Below, in pieces: positions 2,784 through 63,108 of a DNA stretch of 64,000 nucleotides. This DNA comes from an uncultured Bacteroidota bacterium. Its GTDB lineage: Bacteria > Bacteroidota > Bacteroidia > Bacteroidales > P3. The stretch covers positions 124,001-188,000 of the forward strand of contig CACYSB010000006.1 in assembly GCA_902777005.1 (NCBI GenBank), given 5' to 3'. Within the stretch, counting starts at the first letter, position 1. Every line of letters begins with the position of its first letter. The notes under the pieces are model-generated. The model searched no databases. It saw only the letters and a program-made list of their open reading frames with translations, and was not told where the DNA came from. Both the position numbers and the translations under genes were made by a program.

Positions 2784-3780
2784 ATCTCCCGCCTCCGGCG
2801 AAATCCATAAATCCAGGAAGCCAGCAACCGTGGATTCGCGCGAACCTGGCAGAAAGAAATCTCCCGCCTCCGGCGAAATCCATAAATCTAGTAAATCCAC
2901 TAAAGATGGATCTATAGATTACCGCGCAGCGGGGAGAAGGAAAACATCCGCCTCCGGCGAGATCCATAAATCCAGTAAATCCGCAAAGTCTGGATCTATG
3001 GATTTCCGCGCAGCGGGGAGAAAGAAAACTACTCCGCAGAAACCCAAGGAACCCCATGCCGAAGGTGCCATGCGCCTGAACAAGTATATCGCCCATGCGG
3101 GCATCTGCTCTCGCCGCGAGGCCGACGAGCTCATCGCCGCCGGCAGCGTGAAGGTCAACGGCAAGGTGGTCACCGAGATGGGCTACCAGGTGATGCCGGG
3201 CGACGAGGTGCAGTACGGCGGCGAGAAGCTCCGCAGCGAGCGCCTGCGCTACTTCCTCCTCAACAAGCCCAAAGGCTTCATCACCACCACCGACGACCCG
3301 CAGGAGCGCCGCACGGTGATGATGCTCATGGACGGCTGCTGCGCCGAGCGCATCTATCCCGTCGGCCGCCTCGACCGCGCCACCACAGGCCTGCTTCTCT
3401 TCACCAACGACGGCGAGCTGGCCAAGCGCCTCACGCACCCCAGCACGCAGGTCTATAAGATATACCAGGTGGAGCTCAACAAGCCCGTCACCAAGGAGGA
3501 TATGAAGAAGCTCCTCGAAGGCATCGAGTTGGAGGACGGCCCCATGCATGTCGATGATATACAGTATGCCGCCGTCGGCAAGACCATCGACAAGCGCATT
3601 GTAGGCGTCGAGCTGCACAGCGGCCGCAACCGCATCGTGCGCCGCCTGTTTGAGGCTCTCGGCTACGAGGTGCACAAGCTCGACCGCACCACCTTCGCAG
3701 GTCTCACCAAGAAAGACCTCCCTCGCGGCCGCTGGCGTGAACTGACGGAGAAAGAGGTGGGCTTCCTGAAGATGATATGA
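2752..3780 (+). CDS. RsuA/RluB-family rRNA pseudouridine synthase with repeat-built N-terminal extension
   Basis: 342 residues. From Met107 this is a standard enzyme: an S4 RNA-binding domain (107-152, MRLNKYIAHAGICSRREAD), then the pseudouridine synthase domain with GRLDRATTGLLLF, where Asp208 is the catalytic aspartate. Such enzymes isomerise a uridine in 16S or 23S rRNA; which one cannot be decided here. The first 106 residues are a Lys/Ser-rich extension made of three copies of a motif containing SGEIHKS, encoded by palindromic DNA repeats. Basic N-terminal tails are common in Bacteroidetes RluB. A tail made of tandem palindromes is not something I know of. Met107 is an alternative start. 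Confidence 0.9.
   Translation: MIQKKDNSRSKSPASGEIHKSRKPATVDSREPGRKKSPASGEIHKSSKSTKDGSIDYRAAGRRKTSASGEIHKSSKSAKSGSMDFRAAGRKKTTPQKPKEPHAEGAMRLNKYIAHAGICSRREADELIAAGSVKVNGKVVTEMGYQVMPGDEVQYGGEKLRSERLRYFLLNKPKGFITTTDDPQERRTVMMLMDGCCAERIYPVGRLDRATTGLLLFTNDGELAKRLTHPSTQVYKIYQVELNKPVTKEDMKKLLEGIELEDGPMHVDDIQYAAVGKTIDKRIVGVELHSGRNRIVRRLFEALGYEVHKLDRTTFAGLTKKDLPRGRWRELTEKEVGFLKMI
2785..3020. repeat. Three in-frame tandem palindromic units in the RsuA-family gene
   Basis: The shared core GCCTCCGG occurs at 2791, 2866 and 2950, so spacings are 75 and 84 bp, both multiples of three. Within a unit, GGCGAAATCCATAAATCC on the left mirrors TGGATCTATGGATTTCCGC on the right. Unit three is the clearest (2950-3020). 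A 32-bp copy of the left half recurs inverted in lplA at 28622-28653 with three mismatches. Confidence 0.85.
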
Positions 3781-3890: not shown

Positions 3891-4340
3891 ATGAGTTACA
3901 TCCAATCCATATACCATCTTGTCTTCCGTACATACCGGAGCGAGAAGACTATCAACGTCGAACATGAGCGAGAGTTGTATGGTGTTATCCTCAGTCAGTC
4001 GGAGAACCAGAAAGCTAAGATATATCGGATTGGAGGGATGCCTGACCATGTTCATATTCTTGTCTCGCTGCCCGCCACACTCTCTGTGGCACAGTATGTA
4101 CAGGCCGTCAAGACTTTTACTAGCAAATGGCTGCGTGAGAGTCTGTCGTTCCCGGCATGGAGAGGGTGGGGGCATGAATATGCCGCCATATCGTATTGTG
4201 TCCGTGACAAAGATATAATAGTAAATTATATCAAAGGACAGAAGGAGCACCATAAAAGGGTGTCGTTTCAGGAGGAGTACAGGGCATTCCTTGAGGAGAA
4301 CGGCGTGACGATACGGGAGGAGTATTTCCTGAAAGACTGA
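3891..4340 (+). CDS. REP-associated tyrosine transposase (RAYT, IS200/Y1 superfamily)
   Basis: 149 residues, the usual size of a Y1 single-strand transposase. The HUH motif is PDHVHIL (His53, His55) and the probable nucleophile is Tyr113 in VNYIKGQKEHH. It opens with the family-typical SYIQSIYHLVFRT. It cuts and joins single-stranded DNA at hairpins, and its relatives mobilise REP sequences. It sits between two clusters of REP-like hairpins in opposite orientation, so gene and repeats look like a REP-RAYT unit. There is no accessory TnpB and no obvious decay. Confidence 0.92.
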   Translation: MSYIQSIYHLVFRTYRSEKTINVEHERELYGVILSQSENQKAKIYRIGGMPDHVHILVSLPATLSVAQYVQAVKTFTSKWLRESLSFPAWRGWGHEYAAISYCVRDKDIIVNYIKGQKEHHKRVSFQEEYRAFLEENGVTIREEYFLKD

Positions 4341-5302: not shown

Positions 5303-5406
5303 CCATGTAGCCGCTCCGTACCCGCTCCGTAGTCGCTCCGACTGTTTAACGGTTTTTGTCGGAGAAAGGTCGGAGAGGAGTCGGTTAGGGTGCGGAGCGG
5401 CTATGG
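5303..5406. repeat. 11-mer-phased palindrome E1
   Basis: Nine tandem 11-mers (5307-5405) arranged around a dyad. The first three are GTAGCCGCTCC, GTACCCGCTCC and GTAGTCGCTCC; the last is GAGCGGCTATG. Outer arms CCATGTAGCCGCTCCG and GCGGAGCGGCTATGG pair. It lies between two divergent genes. Confidence 0.8.
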
Positions 5407-12003: not shown

Positions 12004-12102
12004 TTTCGACGATAGTATAACTATACATATACGATACTTCAACTATATCTATCGTCGAAGTATCGTCGAAATATCGTTGAAGTGTTGTTGAAATGACGAC
12101 TA
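12004..12102. repeat. 11-mer-phased palindrome E2
   Basis: Nine consecutive 11-mers. The first four end in ATA (TTTCGACGATA, GTATAACTATA and so on); the next four end in GA (TCTATCGTCGA, AGTATCGTCGA, AATATCGTTGA, AGTGTTGTTGA). TTCGACGATAG (12005-12015) pairs with CTATCGTCGAA (12049-12059), and ACGATACTTC (12031-12040) with GAAGTATCGT (12058-12067). AT-rich sequence without other features continues to about 12220. Confidence 0.75.
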
Positions 12103-22995: not shown

Positions 22996-23105
22996 GTATC
23001 CTCTCCGTTACTTCTACGGTTGTTCACCGGTTGTTCTACGGTATTAATCCGTTAAACAACCGGTGAACAGTCGTAGAACAGACGGAGGGACTACATGGAG
23101 GATAC
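22996..23105. repeat. 11-mer-phased palindrome E3
   Basis: Outer GTATCC (22996-23001) and GGATAC (23100-23105). Inner tandem 11-mers from 23016: ACGGTTGTTCA, CCGGTTGTTCT, ACGGTATTAAT, then the mirrored CCGTTAAACAA, CCGGTGAACAG. It fills the gap before the transglycosylase gene and is related to E4 and E5. Confidence 0.88.
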
Positions 23106-23180: not shown

Positions 23181-24458
23181 ATGAAATTACTGAAAGTACT
23201 GTCGCTCGCCATCATCGCCGCCCTCTCCACGGTGGGCCTTGTGTCTGCGCAGGAGCCTGACCATCAGTCTGCAACACGGGATGCCGAACTGATGACGAGG
23301 CGCTACGCCGAGAGTTACGACAGTCTGCTGAACACTTACTATCTGCGCCGCCATGCGCACCGCTCGCTGAGGAGTCACACGGAGTTCTCGCAGGAGGCTT
23401 TCGACGCCCTGCCCGACAGTGTGCTGATGAGCAGGCTCCATGCCTTGCACACGGTGATACCTATGACCTATAACGCCGAGGTGCGTTCTTTCATACGATT
23501 CTATCTCAAGCACATGTCGACCCGCCTCGACGTGATGCTGACGCTGTGTGAATACTACCACCCCATGTTCGAGAATGCCCTTGACCGCTACGGCGTGCCC
23601 GAGGAGCTGAAGTACCTGACTATCGTGGAGAGCGCCATGAACCCGCAGGCGACGTCGCGCGTGGGTGCTGCCGGACTGTGGCAGTTCATGTACTCTACGG
23701 GTAAGCTCTATGACCTGGAGGTCAACTCCGTGGTCGACGAGCGCCGCGACCCGTACAAGAGCACCGTGGCGGCGGCGCGGCATCTGAAGGACTTGTACAA
23801 GGTGTTCGGCGACTGGCAGCTGGCCATTGCGGCCTATAACTGTGGCTCTGGCAACGTGAACAAGGCCATTGCCCGTAGTGGCGGCAAGCGCAACTTTTGG
23901 GAGATATACTACAATCTGCCGCGTGAAACTCGCGGTTATGTGCCGGCTTTTATTGCGGTGGTCTATGTGATGAACTACTACGAGCTGCATGGCCTGCGTC
24001 CCGGCAAGGTGAACCTGCCCATACGCAGCGACACGCTGATGGTGCACCGCGATGTGCTGATGACATACGTAGCCGACGCTGTGGGCATGGAGATGGACGA
24101 GCTGCGGACGCTGAACCCGCAGTACCGCGCCGACTATATACCGGCTTCGTCGCAGCCTTATTCGCTCTGTCTGCCTACGGCCAAGATGGAGCCTTTCTTG
24201 ATGGCACAGGACAGCATCTACGCACACACCGTGGACAGCCTTGAACGCCGTCCGATTAAGATTGAGCCACAGGTTGCAAAGGGCAGGAAAGGCAAGGGAG
24301 CGACCACCGGCGGCGGTGGCAAGTACTACACCGTGAAAAAGGGCGACACACTCTACAAGGTGGCCTCCAAGCACGGCCTTACGGTGCAGAAACTGAAGAG
24401 CCTCAACGGATTGAAGAGCGACAACATACGTGTCGGACAGAAACTGAAGGTAAGGTGA
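23181..24458 (+). CDS. mltD: Membrane-bound lytic murein transglycosylase D-like
   Basis: 425 residues. The signal peptide is about 1-23 (ending VSAQ). The SLT lysozyme-like domain has catalytic Glu150 in [12 protein letters not shown], then GAAGLWQFM and [16 protein letters not shown]. One C-terminal LysM domain (about 382-425, [20 protein letters not shown]). It cleaves peptidoglycan glycan strands. It overlaps the next gene by 4 bp, heading an envelope run. Confidence 0.93.
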
Positions 24459-35570: not shown

Positions 35571-36863
35571 TTAGAGTTTTATTTCTTTCCCGGTATAGAT
35601 ATCCAGTTGTTTCTCTGCCAGCAGGAAGCTGTACTTGCTCTGCAGGTAGTCGTTCAGTGCCGAGAGGTAGCGGTCCTGCTGCTGCAGCATCTCGACGGTG
35701 GTGATGGCTCCTTCGTTGTATTTCACAAGGTAGACTTCGTAGCTGGCTTTGTAGGCTTCGCAGAGGGCTTCGGCTGAACGAAAGCGGTTGTGCGCCTGTC
35801 GCATGTCTAAGTACATCTCGTCCACCTTGTCCTCAAGGTCTATCTGTGTCTGCTCGTTTTCCAGCTCGGCCTGTTGCAGGGCAATCTTGCTCCGCTTGAG
35901 TTGTGTGAGCGAAGCGCCATGGTTCAGCAGCGGTATGTTGACTCCTACCGTTAGCGATGTGTTCAGCCCTCCTTTTATGTTGGTTACCGGGTTGTCGCTT
36001 ACTATGGTGCCTTCATTGTATGACGTGCCGGCGCTCAGGTTCACTGTGGGCAGGAATGCGCTCTCTGCTATCCCCACGTTGTAACGTGCTATGTTCACAT
36101 TCATCTCGCTTATCTCCCAGTCGGGCATGTTCCTTCTGGCCTCTGCCATGATGCTGTCGCGCGGTGCTATGTTGAAGTCGGCGGCTCGCATCGTGTCGTC
36201 CCTCATCACCACTTCTATCACTTTGTCACTCTCCAGGCACATCAGTGCCGCCAACGTGTTTCGGTTGTCCTCTATCGTGAGCAGGATGTTGCTGAGTTCA
36301 TTCTGCGAGGCTATGTAATTGGCCTCAAGCAGCTTATAGTCGCTCTCCAGTATGCGTCCTACCCCGTATTTTATCTCCCCCTCCTCCCGCTGTTGCCGGT
36401 TGGTGTTGATAACCTCCTGCTGGTAGGCTTCTTTCTCATGGTTCATCAGTATGGTGAGATAGGCCGTGATTATCTGCATCCCCACGCTGTTTTCCATCTG
36501 GCGTACCCTCAGCGCACTTTGTTCGGCGCCGACTTTGCTCTGGCGGTATGTATTCAGTGTGTTCAGCCCGCTGAATAGTGTCACACTGCCGTTGATGCCA
36601 TATATCCCGCTACGCCGTGTATCGTTGTCGCGGCTCAGGTCTTGTGTGGCCGATGCATTCACCGACGGCAGAAAGTGTAGTCTCGCACCCGTGAGCGTGG
36701 CTTCTGCTGCCTTCTGGTCTAATGCCGCATTCCTCACCTGTAGGTTATGCTCCATTGCATACCGCAGGCAGCCCTCGAGCCTCATCCTCACCGTATCCTG
36801 CCCCCTCGCCCCCATAATGCCCATTAGCCCTATAATGCCTATAAAAACTATCTTCTTACTCAT
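35571..36863 (-). CDS. TolC family outer membrane efflux protein
   Basis: 430 residues. Signal peptide about 1-21 (MSKKIVFIGIIGLMGIMGARG), then the two-repeat TolC architecture of long coiled coils (LRYAMEHNLQVRNAALDQKA; the second repeat begins RRNMPDWEISEMNVNIARYN). The outer-membrane exit duct of the ABC exporter. Its ATG is contained in the first unit of an 18-copy heptamer array. Confidence 0.92.
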   Translation of the reverse strand: MSKKIVFIGIIGLMGIMGARGQDTVRMRLEGCLRYAMEHNLQVRNAALDQKAAEATLTGARLHFLPSVNASATQDLSRDNDTRRSGIYGINGSVTLFSGLNTLNTYRQSKVGAEQSALRVRQMENSVGMQIITAYLTILMNHEKEAYQQEVINTNRQQREEGEIKYGVGRILESDYKLLEANYIASQNELSNILLTIEDNRNTLAALMCLESDKVIEVVMRDDTMRAADFNIAPRDSIMAEARRNMPDWEISEMNVNIARYNVGIAESAFLPTVNLSAGTSYNEGTIVSDNPVTNIKGGLNTSLTVGVNIPLLNHGASLTQLKRSKIALQQAELENEQTQIDLEDKVDEMYLDMRQAHNRFRSAEALCEAYKASYEVYLVKYNEGAITTVEMLQQQDRYLSALNDYLQSKYSFLLAEKQLDIYTGKEIKL

Positions 36864-36986
36864 AACTCATAATTCATAACTCACAACTCATAATTCATAA
36901 CTCATAACTCATAAATCATAATTCATAATTCATAACTCATAACTCATAACTCATAACTCATAAATCATAAATCATAAATCATAACT
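36861..36986. repeat. Heptamer array (CATAACT)18
   Basis: Eighteen uninterrupted 7-mers, mostly CATAACT with CATAATT and CATAAAT variants. It supplies the ATG of the tolC-like gene and the last codons and stop of the histidine kinase gene. Confidence 0.93.
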
Positions 36987-38459
36987 CTTCTTCCTCAGCT
37001 CTATGCGGAAACAGCTCCCCTGGCCGGGAACGCTGTATTTCAGGTACAGGCGCCCTCGGTGGTACTGGTTTATTATCCGTCGCGCCAGCGCCAGCCCCAA
37101 CCCCCAGCCGCGCGTCTTCGTCGTGAACCCGCTGTCGAAGATGTGTTTCTGCACCGCCGTCGTCATCCCGCGTCCTGTGTCGCTGATGTCTATGTATATC
37201 CTTCTCGCATCCTGCGACGCCACCAACGTGATGTCGCCCGCCCCGTCCATCGCATCTATCGCGTTCTTGCAGATATTCTCCACCACCCATTGGAACAGAT
37301 AGCTGTTCAGCGGCGCGACGAACACCTCTCCCTCCGGTATTGTCACGTTGAACCTTACCTTCCTCGGCGCCCGGCTCTGCAGGTACTCCACCGCCGCCAT
37401 CGTGGCCTCGCGCACGTCGCTCTCTTTAAGCTCCGGTGTCGAGCCTATCTTCGAAAATCGCTGTGTTATGGTGTCCAACCGCCGCACGTCCTTCTCCACC
37501 TCCGCCGCATACTCTTCGCTGAACTCTTTTCCTCGCAGGTATTCCACCCATCCGCTCAGCGAGCTCAACGGCGTGCCCAGCTGGTGCGCCGTCTCCTTGG
37601 CCAAGCCCACCCAGATGCGGTTCTGCTCCGCCGTGCGCGCCGTGCGGAACAGGTAGTAGCTCACCACCACCAGCACGAAGGCGATGAAGAAGTAGAACAG
37701 CGGCAGCCAGCGCAGCGAGCGCAGCAGCGGTGTCGACGAATAATACACGTATGCCGCATGGCCGTCGGGTAGCGTAATCTCTATCGGGTCGTTGTTGAAC
37801 TCTTCGACATATCTCTCTCCCTTCGCCTTCAACCGCTCCTCCTCGATGTTGCCGTAGGCCAGCACCTTCGTGCGGCTGCTGTCGACAATCACCACCGGCA
37901 CCAGCACGGAGTTCTGCGTGATGTCCGCCAGGAAGCTCATGGTGAAGCCCGCCAGCACCTCGCGCAGCTGCGTGTAGTATTCCGACTCCTTGTAGTAGAG
38001 CGTCATAGGCATACCCCAGATGCGGTAGCTGAAGGGCGGATTCTTCGAGTATTCTTCCAGCAGCGCGCCCTCCAGTTTCTGTCCGGCAAGCTCCTGTGGC
38101 ACAGTGATGATGCTGTCGCGAGCACGTGTTATGATTATCGGTGTGTGGCTGCTGTCGACGATATAGTTGACGTAGGCGAGGCTGAACTTGAGGTCCGTGC
38201 TCAGGTCCGGGTCGTTGAACGACTGCAGGATGTCGGTGTAGAGCCGCATCTTGCGGTGCTCGTCGAGGGTGGCCTGCTGGAAGAACTGGGCGGTGGCGGC
38301 AGCCATCTGGTTGCGCTGCCCTATGGCCGACGCCCACAGGCGCACCTTGGCCTCCTCGCTCTCGCGCACCTGTTGCGCCACACGCTGCACCTGCCACAAC
38401 GCCAACAGTGCCAGCGCAATGGTCAGTGAGAGCACTATCAGTTTCAGCCTCTGTTTCAT
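36972..38459 (-). CDS. Sensor histidine kinase
   Basis: 495 residues from Met at 38459. Two transmembrane helices (about 6-24 and 252-272) flank a periplasmic domain. The dimerisation box is KETAHQLGTPLSSL with phospho-acceptor His292. N-box VVENICKNAIDAM, G1 DTGRGM, G2 GWGLGLALARRII. No response regulator is adjacent, so it is orphan within the window. It overlaps the LolE-like gene by 4 bp. The last residues are encoded by the heptamer array. Confidence 0.93.
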   Translation of the reverse strand: MKQRLKLIVLSLTIALALLALWQVQRVAQQVRESEEAKVRLWASAIGQRNQMAAATAQFFQQATLDEHRKMRLYTDILQSFNDPDLSTDLKFSLAYVNYIVDSSHTPIIITRARDSIITVPQELAGQKLEGALLEEYSKNPPFSYRIWGMPMTLYYKESEYYTQLREVLAGFTMSFLADITQNSVLVPVVIVDSSRTKVLAYGNIEEERLKAKGERYVEEFNNDPIEITLPDGHAAYVYYSSTPLLRSLRWLPLFYFFIAFVLVVVSYYLFRTARTAEQNRIWVGLAKETAHQLGTPLSSLSGWVEYLRGKEFSEEYAAEVEKDVRRLDTITQRFSKIGSTPELKESDVREATMAAVEYLQSRAPRKVRFNVTIPEGEVFVAPLNSYLFQWVVENICKNAIDAMDGAGDITLVASQDARRIYIDISDTGRGMTTAVQKHIFDSGFTTKTRGWGLGLALARRIINQYHRGRLYLKYSVPGQGSCFRIELRKKSYDL

Positions 38460-40605: not shown

Positions 40606-40741
40606 CACACTATCCTCTCCGTCTCTGGCCCGACAGATTACCGCTTGTTTACCGGTTGTTTTACGGTTATAAACCGTTAAACAACCGGTAAACAACCGTA
40701 GAACATACGGAGAAGGTACGGCGGGATAGGGTGGGGGTGTG
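40606..40741. repeat. 11-mer-phased palindrome E4
   Basis: Eight tandem 11-mers from 40640: ACCGCTTGTTT, ACCGGTTGTTT, TACGGTTATAA, then mirrored ACCGTTAAACA, ACCGGTAAACA, ACCGTAGAACA. Outer parts CACACTATCC and GGATAGGGTG also mirror. It occupies much of the 390-bp gap between tpiA and arcC; the remainder holds only the arcC promoter. Confidence 0.9.
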
Positions 40742-40784: not shown

Positions 40785-40792
40785 TATATTTG
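40785..40792 (+). promoter_or_regulatory. arcC promoter -7 box
   Basis: TATATTTG followed by CA, 61 bp before the arcC ATG. No well-spaced -33 box was seen. Confidence 0.6.
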
Positions 40793-40853: not shown

Positions 40854-41789
40854 ATGAGAAAACTTGCAGTGGTGGCTTTTGGCGGCAATGCTCTGCTTCG
40901 CAGCGGCCAGAAAGGCACCTACCAGGAACAGATAGAGAATGTTGAAAACACATGCGAAAGTTTGTGCGCCCTGCTGAAACGCGGCTACAACGTGGTCATC
41001 GGCCACGGCAACGGCCCCCAGGTGGGCAATGTGATGCTGCAGCACGAGGCTGGCAAGCTGGCTGGCGTCGAGGCCATGCCGATGGACTTCTGCGTCGCCG
41101 AGACGCAGGGCTCGATAGCCTACCTCATCGAGATGGGCTTGCGCAACGTGATGGCCCGCAACGACATACAACGCGATGTCGTCACGCTGGTCACCCAGGT
41201 GGCCGTCAACAAGCTTGACCCCATGTTCCAGAACCCCACCAAGCCCGTAGGCCCGTACTACACCAAGGAACAGGCCGACGAGTTCGCCCGCGAGACGGGT
41301 GCCAAGTACAAGGAAGACCCCAAGGGTAACGGCTGGCGCAAGGTTGTTGCATCGCCCAAGCCCGTGCGTATCAATAACATCAAGATAGTGAAGCAGCTTG
41401 CTACGGCAGGCCACATTGTGGTCACCGTGGGCGGTGGCGGCATCCCCGTGGTGGAGGAGAGCGACTACGTGCGCGGCGTCGAGGCTGTCATCGACAAGGA
41501 CCTCGCCAGCGCTCTCTGCGCTGTTGAGATCGGTGCCGACGAGTTCTACATCCTCACCGATGTGCCCAAGGTATACATCAACTTCCGCAAGGAGAACGAG
41601 CAGGCGCTGGACACCATCACCATCGCCCAGGCCAAGCAGTACCTCGAAGAGGGTCAGTTCGCCGAAGGTAGCATGGCCCCGAAGGTGAGGGCTGCCATCA
41701 TGTTCGTGGAGCACGGCGGCAAGGAGTGCATCATCACCGAGGCCGGCCAGTTGGACAACCCCAACTGCGGAACGCGCATTGTGAAATAA
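40854..41789 (+). CDS. arcC: Carbamate kinase
   Basis: 311 residues, amino acid kinase fold: VVAFGGNALLRSGQKGT at the start, VIGHGNGPQVGNV, GGGGIPVV, and LTDVPKVYINF. It makes ATP from carbamoyl phosphate and ADP. With the nearby ornithine carbamoyltransferase it completes citrulline catabolism. No arginine deiminase gene is in the window. Confidence 0.97.
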   Translation: MRKLAVVAFGGNALLRSGQKGTYQEQIENVENTCESLCALLKRGYNVVIGHGNGPQVGNVMLQHEAGKLAGVEAMPMDFCVAETQGSIAYLIEMGLRNVMARNDIQRDVVTLVTQVAVNKLDPMFQNPTKPVGPYYTKEQADEFARETGAKYKEDPKGNGWRKVVASPKPVRINNIKIVKQLATAGHIVVTVGGGGIPVVEESDYVRGVEAVIDKDLASALCAVEIGADEFYILTDVPKVYINFRKENEQALDTITIAQAKQYLEEGQFAEGSMAPKVRAAIMFVEHGGKECIITEAGQLDNPNCGTRIVK

Positions 41790-49269: not shown

Positions 49270-49284
49270 TTCCTTAGCTTATTT

Positions 49285-49375
49285 CAATTCTCAATTCTCA
49301 ATTCTCAATTCTCAATTCCCAATTCTCAATTCTCAATTCTCAATTCTCAATTCTCAATTCTCAATTCTCAATTTT
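49285..49375. repeat. Heptamer array (CAATTCT)13
   Basis: Thirteen uninterrupted 7-mers, all CAATTCT except one CAATTCC and the last CAATTTT. It lies between the adaptor and RND genes and supplies the adaptor stop codon. The same unit recurs at 56824, 60805 and 60904. Confidence 0.95.
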
Positions 49376-50402
49376 CAACTATCTCCAGTTTGTCACCGTC
49401 AACTAAACGTGCCTGTCCGGTCACCACCAGCTGGTCGCCGGCCTTCATGGCGCCATCTTCGATGGGCAGCACCTCGATGCGGTCGTCGAAACGCTGGCCC
49501 AGCGTAACGGCCACGCGGCGGGCCGTACCGCCGTCGTTCACGAACACGTAGCGGTCATTGGAGCCCGTGAGCTTAAGCACGCTCTGGTAGGGTACCACGA
49601 TGGCGTCCACCTCGCCCACAGCCAGACGGGTGCGCACATACATGCCGGGCCGTATCTTCTCGCTGTTGTTGGGTATGTTAAGCTTGGCCTGGAAGGTGTG
49701 GCTCTGCGGGTCCACCGTAGGGTATACTATCTCTATCGTGGCGGGGAACACCTCGCCCGGGTAGATGTCGCTTTCAACCTCCACTTTCATGCCCTGTTTC
49801 ACCTTGGGGAAGTATGTCTCCGGTATGTTGATGATGGCTTTCAGACGGTTTATCTGCGTCAGCGTCAGTATCGGTGCTCCGGTGTACATCTCGCCGTCCT
49901 CGAAGTTCTTGGCGCTGATGACGCCGGCGAACTGGGCCTTCACAAAGGTGTTCTCGTTCTGGAAACGCTCGGTCTCCACCAGCTGGTCGTATCCGGCCTT
50001 GGTCTGGTCGTAGACCTGCTGGCTCACCGAGCCCGTGGCTTTCAGGGCCGTCACGCGGTCGAGCTCGGTCTTCGTGCTGGCCAGGTTGATGCGCGTGGTG
50101 TTGAGCTGAGTCTGGTCCATGCGCACCAGCATCGCGCCTTTCTGCACACGCGAGCCCACCTCGACGTATATGTGCTCGATGTGGCCCGTGATGCTGGGCG
50201 ATATGTTCATGGTCTCGTAGCCCTCCAGCGTGGAGCTCAGTTCCAGCGTCTTGGATATGCGCTCGCTCTCCAGCGTGAGCACCTTCACCTTCTCGGCCTC
50301 TTTCTTGGTTGTCGTCGCGGCCTTCTCGCCGCCTTTGCCGCCGCAGGCCACGAGGCTCGCGGCAGCAGCAATAATCATTACTGTACGGATTGCTTTATTC
50401 AT
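49368..50402 (-). CDS. RND periplasmic adaptor (AcrA type)
   Basis: 344 residues. Lipoprotein signal AAAASLVACGG (Cys20). Barrel-sandwich halves (NISPSITGHIEHIYVEVGSR; FVKAQFAGVISAKNFEDGE) flank a coiled-coil hairpin, then a beta-barrel domain and a C-terminal KLTGSNDRYVFVND domain. It connects AcrB and TolC. Confidence 0.94.
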   Translation of the reverse strand: MNKAIRTVMIIAAAASLVACGGKGGEKAATTTKKEAEKVKVLTLESERISKTLELSSTLEGYETMNISPSITGHIEHIYVEVGSRVQKGAMLVRMDQTQLNTTRINLASTKTELDRVTALKATGSVSQQVYDQTKAGYDQLVETERFQNENTFVKAQFAGVISAKNFEDGEMYTGAPILTLTQINRLKAIINIPETYFPKVKQGMKVEVESDIYPGEVFPATIEIVYPTVDPQSHTFQAKLNIPNNSEKIRPGMYVRTRLAVGEVDAIVVPYQSVLKLTGSNDRYVFVNDGGTARRVAVTLGQRFDDRIEVLPIEDGAMKAGDQLVVTGQARLVDGDKLEIVEN

Positions 50403-53041: not shown

Positions 53042-53118
53042 ATTCGCCATTTCGACCATCCTTCAACCATCGTTCGACCATCCTTTAACCATTAGTAATG
53101 GTAAAACTATGGTTAAGT
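53042..53118. repeat. 11-mer-phased palindrome E6
   Basis: Tandem 11-mers CGACCATCCTT (53053), CAACCATCGTT, CGACCATCCTT, TAACCATTAGT, then AATGGTAAAAC and TATGGTTAAGT on the other side of the dyad (CCATTAGTAATGG). It is a divergent member. The 750-bp gap between yajC and the type IX cargo gene otherwise holds the terminator, promoter and RNA listed here; 53119-53239 shows nothing recognisable. Confidence 0.65.
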
Positions 53119-53239
53119 TATTTTAGAAATATGTTTGAAATACCCCATGAATGACGAGTCAACGACGACCACAGCATAAAGACACTCTCCTGCGAGGTGA
53201 ACGACAAATAACAAATGCCCACGATTTTTCATGAATTTT

Positions 53240-53270
53240 TTTGTCAGTTTAAAAACTATTCGTATCTTTG
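53240..53270 (+). promoter_or_regulatory. Promoter of the leader RNA/type IX cargo gene
   Basis: TTTG (53240-53243), 19-bp spacer, TATCTTTG (53263-53270), then CA: a complete Bacteroidetes promoter. Confidence 0.85.
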
Positions 53271-53577: not shown

Positions 53578-55752
53578 TTGGTCGCCGCCTTAATGGTGAT
53601 AGGGCAAAATGTCTTTGCCTATGATTTCTCAGCAGTGTCTCCTTCGGGGCATACTTTGTATTACAAAATAATTGATTCCGTGAATCATTATGTCATGCTT
53701 ACCTATCCTAACGATGAACAAAATATTGATGTTGATTATAATACTACCGCGGCAATGCTCTGGAATCCCAATACCATACCATCTGGAGCGTTGAACTTAC
53801 CAGATACTGTAAGCCATGGTGGAATAACATATACCGTTAGAGCTGTCGGAAATTATGCTTTCGCTAGATGTCCAATCTATTCAGTCTCCATGCCAAATAC
53901 AATAGATAGCTTATGTCCCAATGCTTTTGAGAATTGCCAATATTTAACAAATGTGACATGGTCCAATACGTTGAGATATATTGGTAATTATGCTTTGAGC
54001 AGATGTTATTTGGGCGATGTGGTACTACCATCGTCTGTCCGAGTGCTAGACTGGTATGCAATGAGTTATTCCAACATCACTAGTATTACATTGAATGATT
54101 CTATTCAAAAACTTGGGGAATCGTGCTTGGCTGGCAATCCTTTTACATCATTATTTATCCCTGCGTCCGTAAGAGATTGTTCCAATCCATGCTGGGAATG
54201 GGGTGGAAATAATCTCTCCTCAATAGTAGTTGACCCCAATAATCCATATTACGACAGTCGGGACAATTGCAATGCCATTATCAATACTGCAAATAATTCA
54301 TTGTTTACGGGTTGCAACTACACTATAGTTCCCAATGGTGTTATCAGTGTTGGGGGGTTAGCCGGTTGTTATTTCGAAACACTTGCGTTGCCAAGTTCTG
54401 TTTTGGAAATAAATTTCATGGGTTGCTATATTAATAAACTTGTGATTAACTCACCCGTAATAAGTATTGGATGGAGATTTTTTGGAAATATTGATACTAT
54501 TCAATTTCTTACGGAGACACCTCCTACTCATATTATTGGATACATTGACGAAATGATGACTGAAATCCCCGTTATCGTACCCTGCAATACTTTGTCTGCC
54601 TATCAATCATCTTCGGGATGGAATTATTTTACCAATATCAGCGAAATTGGCACTCCGCAGATTATGGTATATGCCGAGCATGGTACCGCAGAGGTGGTAA
54701 CTTTACCCACCTGCGGCAACGATACGGCCACCGTCAGTGCAACCACCACCGAGGGAAACTATCATTTTGTTGGCTGGAGCGACGGCAGTACGCAGAACCC
54801 TTACACCCTTGTGCTGACAGGCAATACTACACTTACTGCTATCTTCGCCATCGATAGCGTGTTGGTCAGAGCCACCCCCGCCAATCCCCTCAAGGGTGCG
54901 GTAATGGGCGGTGGCGTGGTTCCTATCAACAGCACGACGACGCTTACTGCTATTCCCTCGGGCAGCAACGTCTTCCTCACCTGGAGCAACGGCGTGACGG
55001 ACAACCCATATACGCTCACCGCCACCTCCGACACAACGCTGCAGGCCTACTTCACTCTGCCGGACACCCTTATCTTCCGCGACACCATCAACCACTATAT
55101 CCACGATACCACTTTCGTCAACAACTATGTGCACGACACGATGATACAGTTCGTGAACCAGTACATTCACGACACAACCTATATCAACAACTACATCCAC
55201 GACACAACGATACTGTATATGAACCAGTACGTCCATGATACTACCTATATCAACAACTATATTCACGATACCGTCAGGATAACCACACAGTTGCTCGACA
55301 CAACGATAGTGAATGTCTATTACTATGATACCGTTTATATCACCACTCATCACTACGACACTATATATTTTGCCGACACACTGGTGTTCTATGATACAAC
55401 GTCGGTGACGCATTATGTGTTTGACTCTACATGGGTGTATGACTCGGTGTGGGTGTTTGATTCTGTTTACGTAACGGATACAGTATACTTCTTCGACACG
55501 GTTTATATTGAAGTTCCTGTACAGGGTATTGACGGTGTGGAAATAGTAAATGTAAAAGTGTACACACATCTCAACAGGATTACTGTTGAAGGTGCACAAG
55601 GAATGGCTGTAAGGCTGTACGATGTCAACGGCCGATTGTTGGCAACCAAGGTGGGGGATTCCGAAATGACGAATTTCTATGTTCAGGCTTCCGGCGCCTA
55701 CCTTGTCAGAGTCAACGACTATCCAGCCCGCCGTGTGGTGGTGATAATGTAA
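53578..55752 (+). CDS. Type IX-secreted surface protein: leucine-rich repeats, InlB-type repeats, C-terminal sorting domain
   Basis: About 724 residues. BspA-type leucine-rich repeats (about 60-330; FARCPIYSVSMPNTIDSLCP is one), two InlB B-like repeats (about 345-485; HFVGWSDGSTQNPYTL and FLTWSNGVTDNPYTL), a low-complexity linker repeating YIHDTTYINN (about 490-650), then a type IX sorting domain (about 655-724; VRLYDVNGRLLATKV, GAYLVRVND). It should be exported and surface-anchored. The signal peptide is split: ATG at 53567 reads MKKNWSPP then stop, while this frame continues LVAALMVIGQNVFA. One A missing from the A5 run at 53573-53577 explains it. The listed start is a TTG. Confidence 0.85.
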   Translation: MVAALMVIGQNVFAYDFSAVSPSGHTLYYKIIDSVNHYVMLTYPNDEQNIDVDYNTTAAMLWNPNTIPSGALNLPDTVSHGGITYTVRAVGNYAFARCPIYSVSMPNTIDSLCPNAFENCQYLTNVTWSNTLRYIGNYALSRCYLGDVVLPSSVRVLDWYAMSYSNITSITLNDSIQKLGESCLAGNPFTSLFIPASVRDCSNPCWEWGGNNLSSIVVDPNNPYYDSRDNCNAIINTANNSLFTGCNYTIVPNGVISVGGLAGCYFETLALPSSVLEINFMGCYINKLVINSPVISIGWRFFGNIDTIQFLTETPPTHIIGYIDEMMTEIPVIVPCNTLSAYQSSSGWNYFTNISEIGTPQIMVYAEHGTAEVVTLPTCGNDTATVSATTTEGNYHFVGWSDGSTQNPYTLVLTGNTTLTAIFAIDSVLVRATPANPLKGAVMGGGVVPINSTTTLTAIPSGSNVFLTWSNGVTDNPYTLTATSDTTLQAYFTLPDTLIFRDTINHYIHDTTFVNNYVHDTMIQFVNQYIHDTTYINNYIHDTTILYMNQYVHDTTYINNYIHDTVRITTQLLDTTIVNVYYYDTVYITTHHYDTIYFADTLVFYDTTSVTHYVFDSTWVYDSVWVFDSVYVTDTVYFFDTVYIEVPVQGIDGVEIVNVKVYTHLNRITVEGAQGMAVRLYDVNGRLLATKVGDSEMTNFYVQASGAYLVRVNDYPARRVVVIM

Positions 55753-55958: not shown

Positions 55959-56825
55959 ATGAACAAAGTGAAAGTGGGCGTAGCGCAGATGAGCTGCGTC
56001 GAGGACAAGGCGCAAAACATTGAGCGCTACACAGAAAAGGTGCGCGAGCTGGCCGCAGGAGGCGCACAAATCATTTGCTTACAGGAGCTGTTCGCGTCGC
56101 TCTATTTCTGCGACGAGGAGCGCTACGAGAACTTTAATCTGGCGGAGCCGATACCGGAAGGGCCCACGACCAAGCACTTCATGGCGCTGGCCAAGGAATT
56201 GGGCGTAGTGCTGATATGCTCGATGTTCGAGAAACGCGCCGAGGGCCTCTACCACAACACGACAGCTGTGATCGACGCCGACGGCAGCTATCTGGGCAAG
56301 TACCGCAAGATGCATATCCCGGATGACCCTGGCTACTACGAGAAGTTCTACTTCACCCCGGGCGACTTGGGCTACAAGGTGTTCAAGACCAAGTTCGCCA
56401 CCGTGGGCGTGCTGATATGCTGGGACCAGTGGTACCCGGAGGCAAGCCGCATCACGGCGCTCAAGGGCGCACAGATACTGTTCTACCCCACGGCCATAGG
56501 CTGGGATGTGCGGCAGAAGGAGAAGGACAACCGCGAGCAGTATGCCGCCTGGCAGACCATCCAGCGCAGCCACGCTGTGGCCAACGGGGTGCCGGTGGTC
56601 AGTGTGAACCGCACTGGATTGGAGGGCGGTATGCAGTTCTGGGGCGGCTCGTTTGTGACCAACGCCTTCGGGCGCGTGCTCTGGCAGGCACCGCACTACG
56701 ATGAAGCGCTGCACATCCAGACGCTCGACCTGGACGAGACCGACCACTACCGCCGCCACTGGCCCTACCTGCGCGACCGCCGCATTGACAGCTATGAACC
56801 TATCCTCAACCGTTATATAGACTAA
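55959..56825 (+). CDS. aguB: N-carbamoylputrescine amidase
   Basis: 288 residues, nitrilase superfamily. Catalytic Glu in ICLQELFAS, Lys in KYRKMHIPDDPGYYEKFYF, Cys in GVLICWDQWYPEA. The PDDPGYYEKFYF wording is typical of AguB. It converts N-carbamoylputrescine to putrescine, CO2 and ammonia, the step after AguA, encoded next. Confidence 0.96.
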   Translation: MNKVKVGVAQMSCVEDKAQNIERYTEKVRELAAGGAQIICLQELFASLYFCDEERYENFNLAEPIPEGPTTKHFMALAKELGVVLICSMFEKRAEGLYHNTTAVIDADGSYLGKYRKMHIPDDPGYYEKFYFTPGDLGYKVFKTKFATVGVLICWDQWYPEASRITALKGAQILFYPTAIGWDVRQKEKDNREQYAAWQTIQRSHAVANGVPVVSVNRTGLEGGMQFWGGSFVTNAFGRVLWQAPHYDEALHIQTLDLDETDHYRRHWPYLRDRRIDSYEPILNRYID

Positions 56826-56858
56826 TTCTCAATTATCAATTCTCAATTTTCAATTTCC
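56824..56858. repeat. Heptamer array (AATTCTC)5
   Basis: AATTCTC, AATTATC, AATTCTC, AATTTTC, AATTTCC between the aguB stop and the aguA start. Same family as 49285. Confidence 0.85.
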
Positions 56859-56861
56859 GAA

Positions 56862-57935
56862 ATGACTCCAAAGGAACAAGGCTACTATATGCCCGCCGAG
56901 TGGGCAAAGCATGAGGCCACGTGGCTCACGTACCCGAAGAACCCTGACTCGTGGCCGGGAAAGATTGAGACCATATACCCGTCGTACCACCTCTTTGTGA
57001 AGACCCTCGCCGAGGGCGAGCAGGTGCACATCAACGTGGACGACGAGCAGATGCTGGCGCATGTGCACCGCGAACTTGAGGCTATAGGCACCAATATGGG
57101 CAACATCTGCCTGCATGTGATACCGAGCAACGACGCCTGGTGCCGCGACCACGGTCCGGCGTTCCTGCTCAACCGCAATATGGCGGACCACGACCGGCAG
57201 GGAGTGAACTGCCATATTGCGAAGCGCGCCATTGTCAACTGGAACCACAACGCATGGGGCGGCAAGTACCCCTACGAACTCGACACGCAGGTGCCGGTGC
57301 GCATCCACGACCTGATGCCCGAGATGGCGCTCTTCGAGCCCGGCATCGTGATGGAGGGTGGCTCGATAGACGTCAACGGCTGTGGCGACCTGCTGACCAC
57401 CACCTCGTGCCTGCTCAACCCTAACCGCAATCCCCAACTCGGACAGGACCAGATTGAAGAGTACCTGCGCGGCTACTACGGTGTGGACAATATCATCTGG
57501 CTCGGCGACGGCATCGTGGGCGACGACACCGACGGCCATGTCGACGACCTGAGCCGCTTTGTGAGTGAGGACACTATCATCACTGCGGTGGAAGAGGATA
57601 TGTGGGACGAGAACTACGAGCCGCTGCAGAAGAACCTCAAGATGCTGAACCGTTGCCGCCTGGCCAACGGCAAGCAGCCCACCATCGTGGAGCTGCCGAT
57701 GCCCGACGTGGTCTTCTACGACGGCCAGCGCCTGCCGGCATCCTACGCCAACTTCTACATTGCCAACGGCAAGGTGATATTCCCCACATACCGTTGCCTG
57801 ACCGACAACGAGGCGGCCTACATCCTGGAAGCCTGCTTCCCGGACCGCGAGGTGATAGGCATAGACTCTACCGACATCATCTGGGGCTTGGGGTCCTTCC
57901 ACTGCCTCAGCCAGCAAATGCCTATTATAGGTTAA
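56862..57935 (+). CDS. aguA: Agmatine deiminase
   Basis: 357 residues, guanidino-group modifying fold. MPAEWAKHEATWLTYP at the start, NDAWCRDHGPAFL, WLGDGIVGDDTDGHVDDLSR, and the catalytic Cys in GLGSFHCLSQQMP. It turns agmatine into N-carbamoylputrescine and ammonia. With aguB it forms a putrescine pathway from arginine. The stop codon is in a heptamer array. Confidence 0.96.
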   Translation: MTPKEQGYYMPAEWAKHEATWLTYPKNPDSWPGKIETIYPSYHLFVKTLAEGEQVHINVDDEQMLAHVHRELEAIGTNMGNICLHVIPSNDAWCRDHGPAFLLNRNMADHDRQGVNCHIAKRAIVNWNHNAWGGKYPYELDTQVPVRIHDLMPEMALFEPGIVMEGGSIDVNGCGDLLTTTSCLLNPNRNPQLGQDQIEEYLRGYYGVDNIIWLGDGIVGDDTDGHVDDLSRFVSEDTIITAVEEDMWDENYEPLQKNLKMLNRCRLANGKQPTIVELPMPDVVFYDGQRLPASYANFYIANGKVIFPTYRCLTDNEAAYILEACFPDREVIGIDSTDIIWGLGSFHCLSQQMPIIG

Positions 57936-57978
57936 AGGTTACGGGTTACAGGTTACGGGTTAAAGAATAAAGAATCAT
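57930..57978. repeat. Heptamer array (GGTTACG), 7 copies
   Basis: GGTTAAA, GGTTACG, GGTTACA, GGTTACG, GGTTAAA, GAATAAA, GAATCAT. It runs from the aguA stop to the next ATG. Confidence 0.88.
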
Positions 57979-59841: not shown

Positions 59842-62460
59842 TTATTTGATAAGGTCTTTGGCCAAATTGAGGGCTTTGTCGAGGCCGTCAGGATTCTTGC
59901 CGCCTGCAGTGGCAAAGAACGGCTGTCCGCCGCCGCCGCCCTGTATCTCCTTGCCGAGTGTGCGCACCATCTGGCCTGCGTTGAGGCCGGCAGCGATGCG
60001 GTTGTCGCCAAGTACAATGAGCAGAGCAGGCTTGCCGGCGGTGACGCTGCCCAGCACCACTGCCATATCGGGGTTCTCGTTGCGGAGCGCTATGAGGGCA
60101 TCTTTGAGCGTAGTAACGTCACTGTCCATACGTTCCACGAGAATGGGTGAGGAGTGAAGCTTTTCGGCGACAGCACGTGCCACACCGGCGGCTTTCTCTT
60201 TCTGTAGCTGCTCCACGGTGGCCTTAAGGGATGTGTTGTCCTCCTGCAGTTTGGCGATGGAGGCTCCAAGGTCTTTGGTGCCCTTGAACATTTCGGTGAG
60301 AGCCATGATTTGCTCTTGCTGCTCGTCGGCATAGCGCTCGGCAGCGGCTGCCGTCACGGCCTCTATGCGGCGCATACCGGCGGCAATGGCGCCTTCGCTG
60401 ACAATGCGGAAGCTACCGATCATGCCGGTGTTCTGCACATGCGTACCGCCGCAGAACTCAATGCTGGGGCCGTACTTCACCACGCGCACCTTGTCGCCGT
60501 ATTTCTCGCCGAAGAGGGCCATTGCGCCCAGTTTCTGTGCTTCGGCGATAGGCATTGCGCGGTGCTCCTCCAGAGGCAGGCACTGGCGTATCATGATATT
60601 CACACGGCGCTCCACGTCGCGTATCTCTTCGTGACTAAGCTTGGCGAAGTGGCTGAAGTCGAAGCGCAGGCGCTGCGGGTCCACGCTTGAGCCTTTTTGC
60701 TCCACATGGTCGCCGAGCACCTGGCGCAGAGCGTAGTGCATAAGGTGGGTGGCCGAGTGGTTGCAGGCTGTGGCCTGACGCTTGTCGGCATCCACGGATG
60801 CTTTGAATTGAGAATTGAGAATTGAGGATTGAGAATTGATAACAGTGAACTCTTCTGCATCAACGATGTGGACGATGAGTCCGTTCTCCTTCTTGGTACT
60901 GATAACTCTCAATTCTAAATTCTCAATTTTCAATTTTCCCGTATCGCCAGCCTGGCCGCCGCTCTCGCCGTAGAAGGGGGTGCGGTCGAACACCAGCTGG
61001 TAGAACTCTTTGTCTTTGGCTTTCACCCTACGGTAGCGGGCAATGCGCACATCAGCCTCAAGGACGTCGTAGCCGACGAACTCCTCCTCCACACCAGGCA
61101 GCAGCTCCTGCCAGTCGTCGCTCTCCACCTTTGCGGCACCGCGGCTGCGCTCTTTCTGCTCGGCGAGACCGCGGTTGAAGCCCTCCATGTCGACGCTGAG
61201 GCCTTTTTCCGAGGCTATCAGCTGGGTGAGGTCTATGGGGAAGCCATATGTGTCGAACAGCTCGAATGCAAAGGCGCCGTCGACAACCTTGTCCTTGCAC
61301 TTGGCGGCGTAATCCTCGAAACGCTTGATGCCGCCTGCGAGGGTGCGCAGGAATGCCTGTTCCTCCTCGAGTATGATGCGCTGTATCAGCTCCTGCTGCT
61401 TCTTGAGCTCGGGGAACTGGTGGCCCATCTGGCCCACGAGGGTGGGTACAAGCGTATTGATGAAAGGCTCGGTGAAGCCGAGGAAGGTATAGCCGTAACG
61501 CACTGCGCGGCGAAGGATGCGGCGTATCACATATCCGGCCTTGACGTTGCTGGGCAGCTGGCCGTCGGCAATGCTGAAACTCACGGCACGCAGGTGGTCG
61601 GCGCAGACGCGCATGGCGATGTCAGCCTCCTCGTTCTCGCCGTAGCGCTTGCCACACTTGGCGGCAATCTCCTGAATCAGCGGCTGGAACACGTCGGTGT
61701 CGTAGTTGGAGCGCTTGCCCTGCATCACCATGCAGAGGCGCTCGAAGCCCATGCCGGTGTCGATGTGCTTGGCCTTCAGCGGCTCCAGGCTGCCGTCGGC
61801 TTTGCGGTTGAACTGCATGAACACCAGGTTCCATATCTCGATGACCTGCGGGTTGTCCTTGTTCACCAACTCCTTGCCCGGAACCTTGGCCTTCTCCTCG
61901 TCGGGGCGTATGTCCACATGTATCTCCGAGCAGGGACCGCAGGGACCTTGGTCGCCCATCTCCCAGAAGTTATCCTTCTTGGATCCGCGCAGAATGCGGT
62001 CCTCGCTGATGTGCTCCTTCCAGAAGTTGTAGGCCTCCATGTCCATCTCCAGACCCTCCTTCTCGTCGCCGCCGAAGACGGTGACGTAGAGCCAGTCCTT
62101 GTTTATCTTCATCACCTCGGTGAGAAACTCCCAGCCGTAGGCGATGGCCTCCTTCTTGAAGTAGTCGCCGAAGCTCCAGTTGCCCAGCATCTCGAACATC
62201 GTGTGATGGTAGGTGTCGTGCCCCACCTCTTCCAGGTCGTTGTGCTTGCCGCTGACGCGCAGGCACTTCTGGCTGTCGGTGGCGCGGGGCCACTGGCGCT
62301 GCTGGTTGCCAAGGAAAATGTCCTTGAACTGGTTCATGCCGGCGTTGGTGAACATCAGCGTCGGGTCGTTCTTGATGACCATCGGTGCACTCGGCACCAC
62401 ATGGTGGCCCTTGCTTTCAAAATAGTCTAAAAAGGCTTTGCGTATTTCGTTGCTTGTCAT
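59842..62460 (-). CDS. alaS: Alanyl-tRNA synthetase
   Basis: 872 residues. Catalytic domain from MTSNEIRKAFLDYFESKGH, then the editing domain with NHSATHLMH and CGGTHV zinc-binding motifs and the C-Ala domain ending GGGGQPFFATAGGKNPDG. It charges and proofreads tRNA-Ala. Between GDTGK and KASVDADKRQ, where the beta-barrel linker is normally compact, two heptamer arrays of opposite orientation are translated (KIENLELR; INSQSSILNSQF) around the conserved VISTKKENGLIVHIV strand. Confidence 0.97.
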   Translation of the reverse strand: MTSNEIRKAFLDYFESKGHHVVPSAPMVIKNDPTLMFTNAGMNQFKDIFLGNQQRQWPRATDSQKCLRVSGKHNDLEEVGHDTYHHTMFEMLGNWSFGDYFKKEAIAYGWEFLTEVMKINKDWLYVTVFGGDEKEGLEMDMEAYNFWKEHISEDRILRGSKKDNFWEMGDQGPCGPCSEIHVDIRPDEEKAKVPGKELVNKDNPQVIEIWNLVFMQFNRKADGSLEPLKAKHIDTGMGFERLCMVMQGKRSNYDTDVFQPLIQEIAAKCGKRYGENEEADIAMRVCADHLRAVSFSIADGQLPSNVKAGYVIRRILRRAVRYGYTFLGFTEPFINTLVPTLVGQMGHQFPELKKQQELIQRIILEEEQAFLRTLAGGIKRFEDYAAKCKDKVVDGAFAFELFDTYGFPIDLTQLIASEKGLSVDMEGFNRGLAEQKERSRGAAKVESDDWQELLPGVEEEFVGYDVLEADVRIARYRRVKAKDKEFYQLVFDRTPFYGESGGQAGDTGKLKIENLELRVISTKKENGLIVHIVDAEEFTVINSQSSILNSQFKASVDADKRQATACNHSATHLMHYALRQVLGDHVEQKGSSVDPQRLRFDFSHFAKLSHEEIRDVERRVNIMIRQCLPLEEHRAMPIAEAQKLGAMALFGEKYGDKVRVVKYGPSIEFCGGTHVQNTGMIGSFRIVSEGAIAAGMRRIEAVTAAAAERYADEQQEQIMALTEMFKGTKDLGASIAKLQEDNTSLKATVEQLQKEKAAGVARAVAEKLHSSPILVERMDSDVTTLKDALIALRNENPDMAVVLGSVTAGKPALLIVLGDNRIAAGLNAGQMVRTLGKEIQGGGGGQPFFATAGGKNPDGLDKALNLAKDLIK
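60805..60839. repeat. Heptamer array (GAATTGA)5 inside alaS
   Basis: GAATTGA four times and GGATTGA once. Translated on the minus strand as INSQSSILNSQF. Inverted relative to 60904. Confidence 0.88.
60904..60938. repeat. Heptamer array (AATTCTC)5 inside alaS
   Basis: AACTCTC, AATTCTA, AATTCTC, AATTTTC, AATTTTC. Translated as KIENLELR. Opposite to the array at 60805, with 64 bp between. Confidence 0.8.
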
Positions 62461-62851: not shown

Positions 62852-62859
62852 CAAAGATA
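62852..62859 (-). promoter_or_regulatory. Promoter of the GroES-like/alaS unit
   Basis: On the minus strand TATCTTTG then CAATTC, 23 bp before the start codon. Confidence 0.7.
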
Positions 62860-62913: not shown

Positions 62914-63024
62914 CTATACCCTCTTCGACTGTTCACCTGTTGTTTGCCGGTTGTTCTACGGTTTATTATAGTTAAACAACCGGTGAACAACCGTAGAACA
63001 AGCGTGGAACAGACGGAGAGGATA
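62914..63024. repeat. 11-mer-phased palindrome E5
   Basis: Nine tandem 11-mers from 62926: CGACTGTTCAC, CTGTTGTTTGC, CGGTTGTTCTA, CGGTTTATTAT, then mirrored AGTTAAACAAC, CGGTGAACAAC, CGTAGAACAAG, and ending CGGAGAGGATA. It lies between two divergent promoters and is related to E3 and E4. Confidence 0.9.
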
Positions 63025-63077: not shown

Positions 63078-63108
63078 TTTGCCGTATTGGGAAAAAAGTG
63101 TATCTTTG
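63078..63108 (+). promoter_or_regulatory. lpd promoter
   Basis: TTTG (63078-63081), 19-bp spacer, TATCTTTG (63101-63108), then CA, 41 bp before the lpd ATG. Confidence 0.85.

Follow-up and report, generated by a model that had tools for sequence, protein, structure and literature searches.

Phased palindromes in the window

The locus at positions 40606 to 40741 of the 64,000-nucleotide window, by which we mean the whole stretch of DNA analysed here, holds an 11-bp-phased palindrome (E4) in the gap between divergent genes upstream of a carbamate kinase gene (40854 to 41789, + strand), with a promoter box, TATATTTG (40785 to 40792, + strand), predicted from sequence approximately 116 bp to the right of the element centre. 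Two elements of the same kind were confirmed at the positions proposed in an earlier note on this DNA: E3 (22996 to 23105), upstream of a gene at 23181 to 24458, and E5 (62914 to 63024), which is flanked by two divergent promoters with predicted TATCTTTG boxes to its right (63101 to 63108, + strand) and to its left (62852 to 62859, - strand). Three further elements of the window also pass the lag-11 test applied to these three, namely E1 (5307 to 5403), a weak model match from the same family composed mostly of outer units (CTCCGTACCCG); E2 (12004 to 12094), a palindrome from a different unit family (TATCGTCGAAG); and E6 (53045 to 53130), an array or palindrome of a third unit family (TTCGACCATCC) with a predicted TATCTTTG box to its right (53263 to 53270, + strand). 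Separately, the window contains a 66-bp tandem repeat (55086-55268) inside a long ORF (53578 to 55752) and, at 1298-1481, 4.5 tandem copies of a 41-bp repeat.

Each of E3, E4 and E5 is a dyad in which the best self-match among lags of 5 to 20 falls at 11, with lag-11 arm identities of 0.60, 0.61 and 0.64, respectively; shuffled arms give 0.27-0.29 (p 0.0002 for each element). Across 128 arms from 64 copies in the genome that contains the window (G000), identity was 0.629 at lag 11 against 0.283 ± 0.006 in shuffled arms, 0.523 at lag 22 and 0.30 at lags 10 and 12, bearing out the exact 11-bp tandem period claimed in the earlier note, with an autocorrelation far above that of shuffled palindromes. 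In general, the elements are approximately 80-130 bp long and consist of 11-bp units in two opposed arms, with CG steps spaced 11 bp apart that continue unbroken across the centre (0.88-0.92 at central offsets versus a mean of 0.024 elsewhere). The recurrent GTATCC/GGATAC-type ends that had been noted are present, but they are outer, degenerating 11-mer units (CTCCGTAYCCY / RGGRTACGGAG) that vary between copies rather than fixed terminal repeats.

The same note described palindromes in which each unit of one arm pairs with its matching unit in the other. The dyad holds at the level of the consensus, but in the window genome the two arms do not track each other unit by unit: 78.9% of 43 pairs form in the observed copies compared with 81.1 ± 0.6 when 3' letters are shuffled between copies, and all 500 shuffles paired at least as well as the observed copies, a comparison in which a slight downward bias is possible because copies were picked by similarity to one query. 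With observed pairing below shuffled pairing, the palindrome in this genome holds only at consensus level, and unit-by-unit covariation is absent, selection bias considered. In the sister genome G019 pairing is unit by unit (96.7% versus 94.4 ± 0.4 when shuffled), and the copies fold almost perfectly into hairpins whose three-base loops vary and in which changes in one arm are matched in the other, so that here the hairpin itself could matter. At core position 1/85, approximately 41 bp from the centre, 21 of 28 G019 copies (L320-L355) carry a C.C or G.G mismatch, an asymmetry that gives orientation to an otherwise near-perfect palindrome.

Copy number and placement upstream of promoters

The earlier note had made further copies elsewhere in the genome the test of a dispersed family, and such copies are numerous. 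A blastn search with E5 as query identified approximately 40 distinct places in the 2.3-Mb G000 assembly, and a covariance model, sequence-only and built from 30 copies, identified approximately 75 full-length places, each of them matched on both strands, since the consensus is identical to its reverse complement. Orthologues of the gene downstream of E3 occur in bacterium P3 and in Bacteroidales assemblies from rumen and hindgut metagenomes, of which some bear the label Candidatus Colimorpha; the host genus is a rumen/hindgut Bacteroidales genus that includes Ca. Colimorpha. These assemblies are metagenome bins with rough gene calls, and the promoter motif used throughout is a consensus.

The usual type of promoter box in Bacteroidetes is TAnnTTTG. 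Outward-facing boxes of this type are most frequent at distances of 100-150 bp from the centre of the element, where 67 face outward and 3 inward; 54 of the 64 elements have an outward-facing box within 40-260 bp, and 24 have one on both sides. By rough gene calls, 26 of these elements lie between divergent genes, 19 between tandem genes and 7 between convergent genes, with 12 unresolved; the genes downstream are housekeeping genes, including gyrA, gyrB, secA, dnaB, thrS, hisS, cysS, guaB, serC and carbamate kinase (arcC). Promoters show the same outward bias in two genomes with other unit families, G009 and G017. Very few 11-bp arrays fall within coding sequence (3/79).

The genus also carries 7-bp tandem arrays (56-67 per Mb across genus samples), which in the window (ACTCATA, TCAATTC, GAATTGA and others) are located at 36858-36987, 49284-49378, 56824-56855, 57925-57975, 60805-60839 and 60907-60935. 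Unlike the 11-bp arrays, the 7-bp arrays showed no promoter association in these samples. Heptameric intergenic repeats are likewise carried by Beggiatoaceae (PMC4679880).

Placement bears directly on the possibility that the elements act as RNA hairpins, whether as terminators, mRNA stabilisers or small structured RNAs. Folding of single-stranded DNA yields z values of -9.8, -8.1 and -6.4 for E3, E4 and E5 relative to dinucleotide shuffles; predicted stems (DNA parameters) are very stable, with z reaching -17, and the matched changes of G019 are compensatory. However, the elements precede promoters, and in half of the cases the adjacent genes are divergent; unit-by-unit covariation is found in G019 only. 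No Rfam 15 match was obtained in the window at the gathering threshold, and in the copies inspected, where the 3' arm is purine-rich, no T-run adjoins the stems. The promoter-upstream position, the divergent gene contexts and the lack of an adjoining T-run in those copies all speak against an intrinsic terminator. The transcript hairpin or terminator proposed earlier was therefore not borne out, and we consider any such RNA role highly improbable.

Helical register with the promoter

Supercoiled bacterial DNA in vivo has approximately 11 bp per turn (PMC8501960), a value that fits both the length of the units and their register with the promoter, measured here as the distance from the comb of CG steps (C of CG) to the promoter box. 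In the window genome these distances cluster at 88, 99, 110 and 121 bp (R(11)=0.381, n=77, permutation p about 1e-4) across spacers that are mutually non-homologous; the fit is best at a period closer to 12 than to 11, so that the exact pitch within the spacer is only loosely defined. A second species, G012, which carries another unit at mostly other sites, shows the same register (R=0.509, n=18, p=0.009) in a phase matching that of G000 (0.4 versus 0.3 bp). The phase in G019 also equals that of G000, most G019 sites being orthologous to G000 sites. Register was borderline in G009 (R=0.40, n=19, p=0.048) and not significant in G017 (n=10 promoters), and no register signal emerged when several families were pooled and aligned by the weak consensus described below (n=11). 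The comb-promoter register, together with the 11-bp helical repeat in vivo (PMC8501960), supports the earlier idea of a motif displayed along a single face of the helix.

Register could also be produced by curvature that is independent of sequence, as any helix-phased 11-mer would sum small bends and upstream curvature raises promoter activity. The agreement between pitch and in vivo helical repeat, the variability of the unit sequence and the promoter register are all consistent with this explanation. However, A-tracts of 4 or more are depleted in the elements (0.88 versus 2.87 per 96 bp in flanks), and curvature needs neither inverted arms, nor polarity, nor the genome-wide homogenisation described below; we regard it as very improbable.

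Unit families across the genus

The density of 11-bp tandem arrays is 46-64 per Mb in 1.5 Mb of genus sequence and 78 per Mb in the window; approximately half of the 1.5 Mb comes from around one gene with a known element, which inflates its density. Periods of 10 and 12 bp are rarer than 11 in the genus sample, and periods of 13 and of 19-23 bp are absent. No 11-bp arrays were found in 255 kb from 16 other Bacteroidales families, and a scan for palindromes with a period returned the same contrast between the genus and the other families, with essentially nothing in shuffled sequence. As far as sampled, the elements are specific to one Bacteroidales genus.

Sister species carry 11-bp-phased palindromes composed of other units, representing at least 14 unit families. 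The 5' arm is pyrimidine-rich in 42/42 distinct palindromes, compared with 20/65 control palindromes, and circular alignment of the family units reveals a weak common 11-mer (right arm approximately YCGDAGAWGAR) with an information content of 3.24 bits versus 2.50 ± 0.12 when positions are permuted. The constants across species are the 11-bp period, the pyrimidine-rich 5' arm and the promoter-upstream site. Several unit families may be found within one genome, as with E2 and E6 in the window and again in G014 and G016, a coexistence that fits poorly with one strictly sequence-specific protein and argues for loose specificity.

Orthologous sites, concerted change and core replacement

In approximately 20 species the E3 gene is preceded, at -126 to -300, by an 11-bp-phased palindrome, the unit sequence of which takes many forms (e.g. 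TTCTTATATCG, TTACGGTAGTA, TACCAACTCCC and TTCTTCGATTG). Other species have no array at this site or have direct-only 11-bp arrays (L249, L263, L268), and the latter, having no inverted partner, indicate that the tandem period can occur where no palindrome is present. Arrays occupy the carbamate kinase (E4) site in approximately 6/30 species, where they belong to different families, and the pyrK site likewise in approximately 6/30, while about 5-6/24 G012 elements adjoin genes that have elements in G000. Given the high density of arrays, such occupancy is only moderately above expectation, and we make no claim of genus-wide conservation of position; strong conservation of position is evident in two cases alone, the G000/G019 pair and the E3 site.

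G019 is the nearest sister sharing the unit family of the window genome, and 31 of its 36 sampled elements occupy G000 element positions, with both flanks homologous in 29. Core identity between the two genomes is 0.807 for orthologous copies and 0.792 for non-orthologous copies, with 11-bp indels seen between orthologues, while identity within a genome is 0.901 in G019 and 0.762 in G000, which suggests that homogenisation is recent in G019 and has decayed in G000.

Such patterns invite comparison with neutral minisatellites, in which replication slippage and hairpin-templated repair would create tandem inverted 11-mers, to be lost everywhere except in the untranscribed gap ahead of promoters. 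The 11-bp indels, the direct-only arrays, the scarcity of arrays in coding sequence and the abundance of 7-bp tandem arrays in the genus all agree with this explanation. Neutral slippage does not, however, predict a promoter register, a uniform arm polarity or the homogenisation of unlinked copies throughout a genome; the 7-bp arrays show no association with promoters, and slippage alone does not account for a preference for 11 bp over 10 or 12, both of which are rare. We therefore view a minisatellite origin as improbable.

Evidence for the replacement of cores in place comes from one site. At the E4 site, G008 and G023 have flanks that are approximately 90% identical and cores that are completely different, a perfect TTCTTCAGTAG hairpin in G023 being nested within retained CCGTAGGGG outer units. 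Spread to new sites is apparent in G012, where at least 40 copies are 91-100% identical to the query copy. The G012 copies examined (L360-L387) use a few alternative outer hexamers and middle units that are combined differently on the two arms, with an apex of CGC/GCG, CGG/GCG or CGC/CCG; the combination CGG/CCG does not occur, a pattern suggestive of recombination of arms between copies. Beyond the 11-mers, G009 copies (L457, L460, L461, L462) share an outer end, TACCAACTCCGTATC or its complement, with GGTACTAATTATCAGG next in some; this conserved end may represent the true border of a mobile unit.

The main rival to the explanation that we favour, a rather unlikely one in our estimation, is that the elements are non-autonomous palindromes resembling MITEs or REPs, dispersed without benefit to the host by a putative enzyme that targets DNA upstream of promoters. 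Their register could then result from integration on one face of the helix beside bound RNA polymerase, by analogy with integrases tethered to transcription complexes. Consistent with such elements are the near-identical G012 copies, which lie at mostly new sites and, although young, are already in register; the polarity conferred on G019 palindromes by their asymmetric mismatch; the core of G023 replaced inside older outer units; and the conserved outer end in G009. Against this, the 31/36 positions common to G000 and G019 were kept despite sequence turnover, the 11-bp pitch is common to unrelated unit families, and neither fixed terminal repeats nor target-site duplications were recognised when boundaries were inspected by eye. 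Furthermore, the array carriers G016 (100% complete) and G014 (97%) are without Y1 transposase genes.

Comparison with known repeat families

The probable mobility of these elements places them near small dispersed palindromes, of which REP sequences are 20-40 bp long, tagged with GTAG/CGTC, linked to RAYT and found for the most part downstream of genes, where the neighbouring ORFs are unidirectional or convergent (PMC3733652). In common with REP/BIME and RAYT palindromes (PMC3733652, PMC3116915), the elements described here are short, intergenic and dispersed in tens to hundreds of copies with marked species specificity, but they are approximately 80-130 bp long, contain tandem 11-mers in each arm and are located upstream of promoters, mostly between divergent genes. 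The placement of REPs is contradicted by the gene contexts and outward promoters reported above (26 divergent, 19 tandem and 7 convergent; 67 outward versus 3 inward), inspection of aligned copies found no constant tag at the foot of the hairpin, and Y1_Tnp occurs once in G000 and is absent from G014 and G016. The elements thus differ from REPs, as the earlier note had supposed, in every REP feature tested (length and tag, placement, and Y1_Tnp). The single Y1_Tnp (RAYT-like) gene of G000 lies in the window (3891-4340, domain 3903-4241); approximately 1 kb upstream (2851-3029) are two copies of an 84-bp tandem repeat and a 32-bp inverted repeat, not 11-bp-phased, which are possibly that gene's own REP set.

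Within the Bacteroidales, BrickBuilt of P. gingivalis consists of 23-nt direct repeats between a leader and a tail, with small terminal inverted repeats, in 19 copies (PMC4596501). It too is an intergenic, dispersed element with internal tandem repeats; the present elements differ in their 11-bp units, opposed arms and turnover of units between species, and no leader or tail was recognised in them. Membership of this family is contradicted by the unit length, 11 bp as opposed to 23 nt, and by the absence of 19-23 bp periods from the genus samples.

Tandem 11-bp direct repeats, each bound by one protein per helical turn in head-to-tail order, are familiar from PhoB boxes and from ParR/parC, where the recognition sequence is fixed and the sites are few. 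The elements share tandem 11-bp units with such arrays and differ in that their units turn over and their arms are opposed. Foldback and Galileo elements of Drosophila are much larger, and to our knowledge have no promoter register. As far as the published accounts consulted describe them, they are eukaryotic transposons with a transposase-coding relative, and share long, internally repetitive inverted repeats with the elements reported here (PMC3573991, PMC4168063). A lineage repeat of Prevotella intermedia is also intergenic, from the Bacteroidales and present in approximately 180 copies, but is a 188-bp incomplete repeat of one sequence, and is set apart from our elements by its description only (PMC4755523). 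The open-access literature yielded no description of 11-bp-phased palindromes upstream of promoters, and the combination of 11-bp units, a fixed layout and promoter-side position, and a sequence that varies between species has no match in that literature.

Proposed mechanism and implications

In this work we propose that the elements are mobile, self-renewing DNA sequences that act upstream of promoters as helix-face combs, an explanation to which, with function and maintaining enzyme both putative, we give an even chance. One 11-bp unit would occupy each helical turn in vivo and the arrays would form two opposed arms, so that promoters to the left and to the right would both be presented with the same face of the unit, at a distance that just leaves room for RNA polymerase. 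The sequence of the unit would be free to change within a weak pattern, with pitch, polarity and promoter register kept. A putative enzyme would copy the hairpin core into existing and new sites upstream of promoters, and this copying within a genome would lead the elements of each species to converge on units of their own, with many sites retained. In the leading version of this scheme, a putative protein would bind cooperatively and head-to-tail, one unit per turn along one face, and once bound is predicted to alter promoter activity or to insulate neighbouring promoters.

More tentatively, and with somewhat less than even confidence, we suggest that these elements constitute a new class defined by its geometry, that of self-copying palindromic combs in register with promoters, whose units are replaced in concert in each species. 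If this is true, they would provide a bacterial case of rapidly evolving DNA sites with a conserved architecture, and the genus would possess, at many of its housekeeping promoters, an element recognised through pitch and orientation instead of sequence, which ordinary sequence searches would consequently miss across species. The elements would offer a natural system for the study of concerted sequence change among dispersed sites and of palindrome-core copying in place, as well as of DNA effects that proceed by helical turns upstream of RNA polymerase on Bacteroidota promoters.
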